A DNA stretch of 64,000 bases from positions 62,001 to 126,000 of the forward strand of contig NZ_BBJU01000012.1 of assembly GCF_000739935.1 (NCBI RefSeq), written 5' to 3'. The translations under genes were made by a program, and so were the position numbers. Positions 1,928 through 2,289 of the stretch are shown piece by piece (position 1 is the first letter of the stretch; the number at the start of each line of letters is the position of its first letter). This DNA comes from Agrobacterium rubi TR3 = NBRC 13261 (lineage in GTDB: Bacteria; Pseudomonadota; Alphaproteobacteria; Rhizobiales; Rhizobiaceae). The notes beneath the pieces are model-generated. The model did not search any database and was not told the origin of the DNA. It saw only the letters and a list, made by a program, of their open reading frames with translations.

Positions 1928-2289
1928 CACAGGTCTCCCTTGCGCGCTGGGCGAGCGGGAAAACGGGGATCAGGCATGGCACAAAGCGCACGCATGGAAT
2001 GCATGGTCAGATTTTTCATGGGTTTAAATCCGCCGGCGTCATAAGCAGGCGGTACCGACATCGCGAGAGCGCCGTAAAACTCTCGCCAGAGGGGCCCGGC
2101 ACCAAAGTTCGGTTCCCAAGTCCCGATGTCAGGGGATTGGGAATGCCTTTGTTAGTCTCTCAAGTTCGTGATCGCGTCAAGGTGAAAGTTGTCTTTTGCG
2201 GCTTCCGTCTCCAGGTCGAGCTCGCATTTCAGCACTTTTGCAAACAAAAAGTTGCATTGTGCCTGTAAGGATCGCCCAGCAGCGCTGCC
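1928..2289 (-). promoter_or_regulatory. Long structured 5' leader/promoter region of the DUF475 gene
   Basis: This 362-base gap lies between the DMT exporter stop and the DUF475 start. Read on the minus strand it holds a TTGACG -35-like box (2175-2180), then three hairpins: TTCCCAATCCCC with GGGA..TGGGAA (about 2105-2145), GCGAGAG with CTCTCGC (about 2060-2086), and CCGCC with GGCGG (about 2028-2053). About 100 unstructured bases then lead to the start codon. I could not match it to the yybP-ykoY manganese riboswitch core, so the class is unknown. The upstream 100 bases (2180-2289) show no clear element. Confidence 0.4.

Follow-up and report, generated by a model that had tools for sequence, protein, structure and literature searches.

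The window, a 64,000-nucleotide stretch of Agrobacterium rubi TR3 = NBRC 13261 (NZ_BBJU01000012.1, 62,001-126,000; coordinates below are window positions), carries on its minus strand a gene for a membrane protein that matches DUF475 (Pfam PF04332, E 4.4e-104) and also TerC (PF03741, E 7.2e-21). Ahead of the gene stand three hairpins (P0, the composite P1/P2 and P3) and a short upstream reading frame (uORF) that runs into its start (Table 1). The original prediction of a structured leader with three hairpins before a DUF475/TerC-type gene is borne out, both by these hairpins and by the two Pfam matches.

Layout of the DUF475 leader and its upstream reading frame

Table 1. Features of the DUF475 leader, listed 5' to 3' along the minus strand
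Feature	Position	Strand	Basis
-35-like CTTGAC, putative promoter	2181-2176	-	same spacing in 32/34 DUF475 leaders
-10-like AGACTA, putative	2158-2153	-	inference
Transcription start, predicted	near 2146	-	deduced from the putative promoter
P0 hairpin TTCCCAATCCC-CTGACATC-GGGACTTGGGAA	2143-2113	-	fold z -4.09
terC RNA, Rfam RF03067, model positions 1-59	2107-2046	-	covariance-model match
P1/P2 unit of terC RNA	2103-2051	-	fold and covariation
P1 5' strand GGTGCCGG	2103-2096	-	covariation set
Internal-loop strand GCCCCTCTG, nearly invariant, with first P2 base	2095-2086	-	conservation
P2 hairpin GCGAGAG...CTCTCGC	2086-2063	-	fold and covariation
GATGTC, nearly invariant: internal-loop GATG and P1 top	2062-2057	-	conservation
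P1 3' strand TCGGTACC; final two bases common to P3	2058-2051	-	folding comparison
P3 hairpin CCGCCTGC...GCCGGCGG, over most of the uORF Shine-Dalgarno-like GGCGGA	2052-2030	-	fold z -2.87
uORF, 30 codons, MKNLTMHSMRALCAMPDPRFPARPARKGDL; stop TGA at 1929-1927	2019-1927	-	overlap conserved in relatives
AAGGGAGACC within uORF, possible own Shine-Dalgarno of DUF475	1941-1932	-	inference
DUF475 (TerC superfamily) membrane protein, 368 aa	1927-821	-	Pfam

Among 200 dinucleotide shuffles, none folds as well as P0 and one as well as P3 (z values in Table 1), and 20 equal P1/P2 (z -1.37); the 253-nt leader as a whole has an unexceptional folding energy (z -0.67; 57 of 200 shuffles). A scan of 1850-2350 found no intrinsic terminator. 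A terminator-like hairpin at 713-742, AAAGCCCCGGCACGATGATGCCGGGGCTTA, separates the DUF475 end from a MarR-type gene. A published list of genes lower in a vaccine strain than in the strain compared with it includes one for DUF475 (PMC6382750).

Of the 32 DUF475 leaders that contain GGCGG (two of 34 are without it and were set aside), 31 have a uORF whose stop overlaps the start of DUF475, in the registers TGATG/TAATG or ATGA, the window using TGATG; in the sole exception the uORF ends 2 nt ahead of the start codon. Most of the 32 leaders belong to one genus, with L079, L146, L150, L169 and L176 coming from outside that draw. These uORFs span 26-43 codons, and their peptides are widely divergent. 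Differences counted by codon position (357/367/543 and 507/678/695) show a third-position excess so modest that the peptide is not clearly under selection. The overlap argues strongly that translation of the uORF and of DUF475 would be coupled, and it makes ATG 1927 the likely start codon over GTG 1930; a role specific to the peptide is weakly suggested.

Identity, conservation and gene contexts of the terC RNA

The covariance model of terC RNA (RF03067) matches the leader over its full length, sequence and both helices included, scoring 64.7 bits where the gathering score is 39.9 (E 6e-11), and no other Rfam family matches 1700-2400 at E≤10. The DUF475 start lies 118 nt past this match on the same strand. 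The leader had been called unclassified and possibly a new RNA; neither label stands, as the scan returns a known family, already named and with three copies in this genome. To our knowledge the function of terC RNA is not known, and it counts as an orphan candidate RNA, reportedly from a study that put forward 224 candidate RNAs in 2017. A literature search by title and abstract opening gave, among the matches listed, none about bacterial terC RNA.

Besides the window copy, this genome holds one terC RNA before a small ORF (L002) and one before a TerC/Alx protein (L003). At the former (L002:1500-1900, contig C56) the frame of the small ORF is broken by TAG after 39 codons; in a relative (L238) the same protein family has its frame open there. 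In L002, GATGTCGG of the terC RNA could pair with CCGACATC immediately 3'. Across the class, RF03067 occurs in 52 of 385 genomes (51 over the cut-off) and in 39 of 277 genera. It is present in 42 of 61 relatives, among them all 37 genomes of the genus (this one counted), each of these with at least two copies.

For the conservation analysis, 240 loci yielded 223 instances, 209 of them unique; 27 loci had no instance passing the string-and-stem filter (long P2 loops and similar). Covariation was read from 68 non-redundant sequences with a P2 loop part of at most 24 nt. In these, P2 pairs four to seven each occur as four Watson-Crick types (fifth pair: CG 21, GC 16, TA 12, AT 11), and P1 pairs -4 and -5 have changed on both sides; 22 sequences lack P1 pair -3, and over half lack the pairs past -6. 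GG/UC, GCCCCUCUG and GAUG show almost no variation. The internal loop, GGGCCCCUCUGG / GAUGUC, is exact in the window and in 194 of the 209 unique instances, a figure that overstates the invariance of the core in part of the set, since 119 contigs, of which L142-L180 make up 39, were picked by an exact core pattern that contains this loop. The pattern excluded the helices, save the bases adjoining the core. Covariation among relatives, originally put forward as one way to check the leader, is found in the P1 and P2 pairs, and the alignment shows terC RNA to be a covarying two-helix RNA with a nearly invariant internal loop.

Several loci carry two copies. Divergent terC RNA pairs, 97-151 bp apart, lie at 1489503-1489712 of G039:C2, 2785-3024 of G127:C157, 125403-125616 of G128:C9 and 110510-110776 of G395:C17; Rubellimicrobium roseum (L101) has a pair on the same strand. 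Both genes of such a pair may carry the leader. The contig that bears the terC RNA and TerC gene of L118:2713-2754 is labelled as a metagenome bin of Acidobacteria, by transfer or by mis-binning.

Downstream genes were grouped as BLAST clusters of ORFs starting at most 450 nt past the RNA, with one representative of each scanned against Pfam (three for TerB). TerC-superfamily proteins follow in 127 of the 209 contexts: TerC/Alx in 65, DUF475 in 34 (a count inflated by same-genus sampling) and YjbE-type TerC in 28. Two terC RNA protein types match the NCBIfam families R_switched_Alx and R_switched_YjbE above cut-off. Next come DUF4112 (13), a 103-aa protein without a Pfam match (9), Zn-ribbon TFIIB (6), TerB (5, of which 3 were scanned), Bax1-I (4), YegS kinases (3), carbonic anhydrases (3) and a 126-aa protein (2). 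Single contexts hold DUF465, MrpE-like, DUF533, CitMHS, cation P-ATPase and ExoD proteins, and in one a weak DUF465 match (below cut-off) is followed by nhaA as second gene; as the start of some ORFs is over 150 nt away from the RNA, a given ORF may not be the one under its control. The remaining 30 of 209 contexts are truncated or without assignment. In L234 the gene of the 103-aa protein has behind it, at +356, an ORF that resembles the ExoD ORF at +164 in L236. By this survey the family also stands before DUF4112, TerB, Bax1-I, carbonic anhydrase and ExoD genes and an nhaA operon, which is new here. That several of these are pH or cation genes is no more than suggestive; the pH-type genes occur one to few times each among the 209 contexts.

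Placement of the putative promoter and pairing around the Shine-Dalgarno region

A possible promoter had also been predicted. The promoter-like CTTGAC/AGACTA is there, and a promoter scan of 1850-2350 called no sigma-70-type site, so the window promoter rests on conservation: 32 of 34 DUF475 leaders, a good share of which come from one genus, have CTTGAC about -92..-70 from the core. From this placement the transcript should begin before P0, and the window promoter would lie upstream of all three hairpins. The rest of the family is arranged differently: among 175 non-DUF475 leaders 124 have CTTG at -53..-38 of the core, against 0 of 34 DUF475 leaders, and moving the window 60 nt upstream as a control finds CTTG in 12 of 208 (all leaders). 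At this near-fixed distance the predicted transcript start of the non-DUF475 leaders adjoins the RNA.

A two-block EM promoter model of 183 leaders gave CTTGAA-N15/16-CCYANNT; it was seeded with CTTGAC/CTATAT and so was not blind, and the CTTG position counts are independent of it. This consensus is close to published sites, CTTGAA-N15-16-CCTATAT for RpoH1 (PMC4843759) and cTTGaa-N16-CgATaT for R. etli sigma-32 (PMC4167512), and groES of this genome has a similar CTTGAC-N16-CCTATCT. Sigma-70 and RpoH sites are reported to overlap in such bacteria (PMC3616915), which makes RpoH a putative assignment. The window itself does not have the RpoH (sigma-32) type CTTGAA-N15-16-CCTATAT at the leader start, its CTTGAC lying far upstream.

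The extra hairpin of the DUF475 leaders, P0, has a loop GACATC(G) that is the complement of (C)GATGTC in the terC RNA. GACATC is present in 20 of 32 distinct DUF475 upstream segments (19 with GACATCG) and missing from 12; mostly it sits in a hairpin loop, and the stems differ among leaders. Loci L242-L245 were left out of this count, having been fetched by a pattern that requires GACATC and that occurs in 6 of 397 genomes from the order. It is possible that the P0 loop contacts GAUGUC or competes for it. A wider pairing of GAUGUCGG with a downstream CCGACAUC was rejected as a family trait: it is enriched at z -4.5 (other probes -0.8 to -2.2), with GACATC in 7 of 156 leaders against 2.4 expected, and is at most a lineage feature.

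Downstream of P1, the tract that follows the helix was compared with the Shine-Dalgarno region in 58 leaders. The duplex energy is -7.36 against -6.41 ± 0.27 when permuted (p 0.001), for bases 2-14 and a 20-nt window, the best among ten tract/window settings. The p values were 0.006 and 0.09 for bases 0-8, 0.001 and 0.002 for bases 2-14, 0.002 and 0.001 for bases 3-18, and 0.12 and 0.016 for bases 5-18; for bases 8-20, with the tract shifted eight bases beyond P1, the effect is reversed (0.997 and 0.979). Stricter redundancy cuts gave p 0.004, 0.035, 0.020 and 0.007 at n=49, 35, 23 and 17, and two control tracts stayed flat at these cuts. In the DUF475 group P3 is present and nearly invariant, and the covariation comes from the 58 other family leaders. 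In those leaders the comparison shows a post-P1 tract covarying with the Shine-Dalgarno region, a predicted sequestering stem P3 that overlaps P1; the overlap in the window is 2 nt.

Two further pairings were tried and dropped. In a broader test the P1 3' strand (TC and seven bases) is flat against the next ~90 nt (-8.416 versus -8.413), which gives no support to a general alternative pairing there, and the invariant CCCCUCU fails as a specific anti-Shine-Dalgarno, since 16S-like and reversed probes also favour target over control sites. For the region after P1, RNAalifold returned no structure from MAFFT alignments, which were too poor. L033, L017 and L026 have GGACCGCATCGGG after P1, running on to CGATGC...GGTCC, as a second hairpin that uses the P1 3' strand, and related GGACCGCATCGGG starts follow P1 in L025, L070 and L141; the second hairpin of the first three is perhaps a different expression platform.

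A folding model of 63 leaders places Shine-Dalgarno openness at 0.40 with P1 and P2 enforced, 0.21 with P1 blocked and 0.22 when free; it is higher in the enforced than in the blocked state in 47 leaders and lower in 7. For the 32 DUF475 leaders the values are 0.26 versus 0.15. In the window the model gives the uORF Shine-Dalgarno no opening (0.07 when free, 0.06 when P1/P2 are enforced, 0.16 when P1 is blocked).

Candidate signals and relation to known leaders

We tentatively propose, with confidence a little short of even, that the terC RNA leader is a translational switch gating DUF475 through the coupled leader peptide. A signal would stabilise the internal loop so that P1 retains its outer bases; P1 holding these would weaken the overlapping P3 and open the ribosome site (ON), and P3 would hide that site when the signal is absent. 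The site hidden in the window would be the Shine-Dalgarno of the 30-codon uORF, and the overlap between the uORF stop and the DUF475 start is proposed to couple translation of DUF475 to that of the uORF. The switch is probably tuned by P0, which would contact GAUGUC or compete for it.

As for the signal, the gene contexts, among them nhaA, MrpE-like, ExoD, carbonic anhydrase and TerC/Alx, lean weakly toward alkaline pH or another cation or envelope stress over Mn alone. Mutants in exoD of a rhizobium are described as alkali sensitive (PMC1403797), and the E. coli alx leader is reported to respond to alkaline shock and Mn (PMC9603457); in the searched text of an S. meliloti RpoH1 pH-stress paper the words exoD, terC and alkaline are absent (PMC2976971). 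A pH or cation signal is reasonable but unproven, and, with each pH-type gene appearing in one or a few of the 209 contexts, is a lead only. Extended further, terC RNA might be the sensor of an unrecognised alphaproteobacterial regulon for alkaline pH and cation stress, in which RpoH-type transcription supplies the message and the RNA gates translation. On this somewhat unlikely proposal, an RNA of 45-60 nt would gate TerC proteins, Na+/H+ antiporters, ExoD and carbonic anhydrase along with small DUF465/DUF4112/TerB proteins, and the rhizobial DUF475 branch would add a P0 kissing hairpin and the coupled leader peptide.

Mechanisms other than a translational switch would share parts of this evidence. 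The small internal loop hardly varies, many leaders have less than 45 nt from motif to chosen start codon, and the RpoH-like promoters at near-fixed distance would put the transcript start at or near P1, as would suit a 5'-terminal stabiliser or protein-binding site that acts via mRNA decay or a trans-acting factor and involves no ligand switch. We consider this unlikely, as the P3/Shine-Dalgarno covariation and the uORF coupling indicate translation, and DUF475 leaders have ~45 nt and another hairpin ahead of P1. An RNA thermometer, combining RpoH-type transcription with a hairpin melted by heat to expose the Shine-Dalgarno, would draw on the same promoters, on the groES resemblance and on the sites hidden by P3; such a device does not need a near-invariant internal loop, and with RpoH-like spacing in 0 of 34 members of the DUF475 branch it is quite improbable. 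Very improbable indeed is an attenuator in which P3 or a later hairpin terminates transcription: leaders such as L033 and L017 do have a second hairpin built on the P1 3' strand, but terminator-like sites are absent from 1850-2350 and the generic pairing test of that strand was null.

Manganese needs separate weighing, as terC RNA could be another Mn2+ riboswitch, unrelated to the known one, by which Alphaproteobacteria switch on Mn exporters of the TerC type. Its TerC-superfamily contexts (127 of 209) and the two R_switched families would fit, as would reports that E. coli Alx and MntP are under Mn/alkaline riboswitches (PMC9603457) and that a Vibrio terC lies behind yybP-ykoY and is Mn-induced (PMC13274385). 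The yybP-ykoY core is missing here, as originally predicted: 1700-2400 has no match at E≤10, and the genome has none to RF00080 under filters stricter than E≤10, which again suits a second Mn sensor. Of 372 genomes drawn from the class, 54 show yybP-ykoY at E≤0.001 (40 of them above its cut-off), and these 54 include 24 of the 52 terC-RNA genomes (16 over cut-off, 8 under). The Fisher value for this association, 1e-9, is approximate, given two class draws (385 and 372 genomes) and matches taken at E≤0.001. The RNAs thus co-occur, and terC RNA as a replacement for yybP-ykoY was rejected. The best five class matches to yybP-ykoY (L247-L251) all precede genes for GDT1 divalent cation/proton antiporters, and two of these genomes (G263 and G231) carry terC RNA as well. 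With nhaA, carbonic anhydrase, ExoD, DUF4112 and YegS kinases also a poor fit to Mn export, a second Mn2+ riboswitch is rather unlikely, and Mn alone as the signal is mildly disfavoured. Metal sensing, as first suggested for this leader, is no more than a candidate: many genes behind terC RNA are not metal exporters, but the TerC-superfamily share of the contexts leaves a metal signal some probability.

The window leader is a member of a known family that here also has P0 and a coupled uORF, and its proposed mechanism is translational. The question is broadened from a plain Mn riboswitch to pH and cation stress, and the gene list, promoter position, P3 and uORF coupling offer concrete, cheap tests of signal and direction. 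With RF03067 it shares sequence, both helices and a place before a TerC-superfamily gene; P0 with its GACAUC loop, P3 and the coupled uORF are additions outside the 59-position model. The yybP-ykoY Mn2+ riboswitch (RF00080) is reported to precede TerC/Alx-family genes in other bacteria (PMC13274385, PMC9603457). It is a leader switch, as is proposed for the terC RNA of the window, but gives no covariance-model match there, and its best five class matches stand before GDT1 genes. The E. coli alx leader, a yybP-ykoY member, is by covariance model of a different family from terC RNA; its aptamer is larger, and we know of no coupled uORF of the window kind in it. Its likeness to the window leader lies in the gene and perhaps in the stimulus, as it is reported to control a TerC/Alx protein whose output is raised by alkaline pH (PMC9603457).
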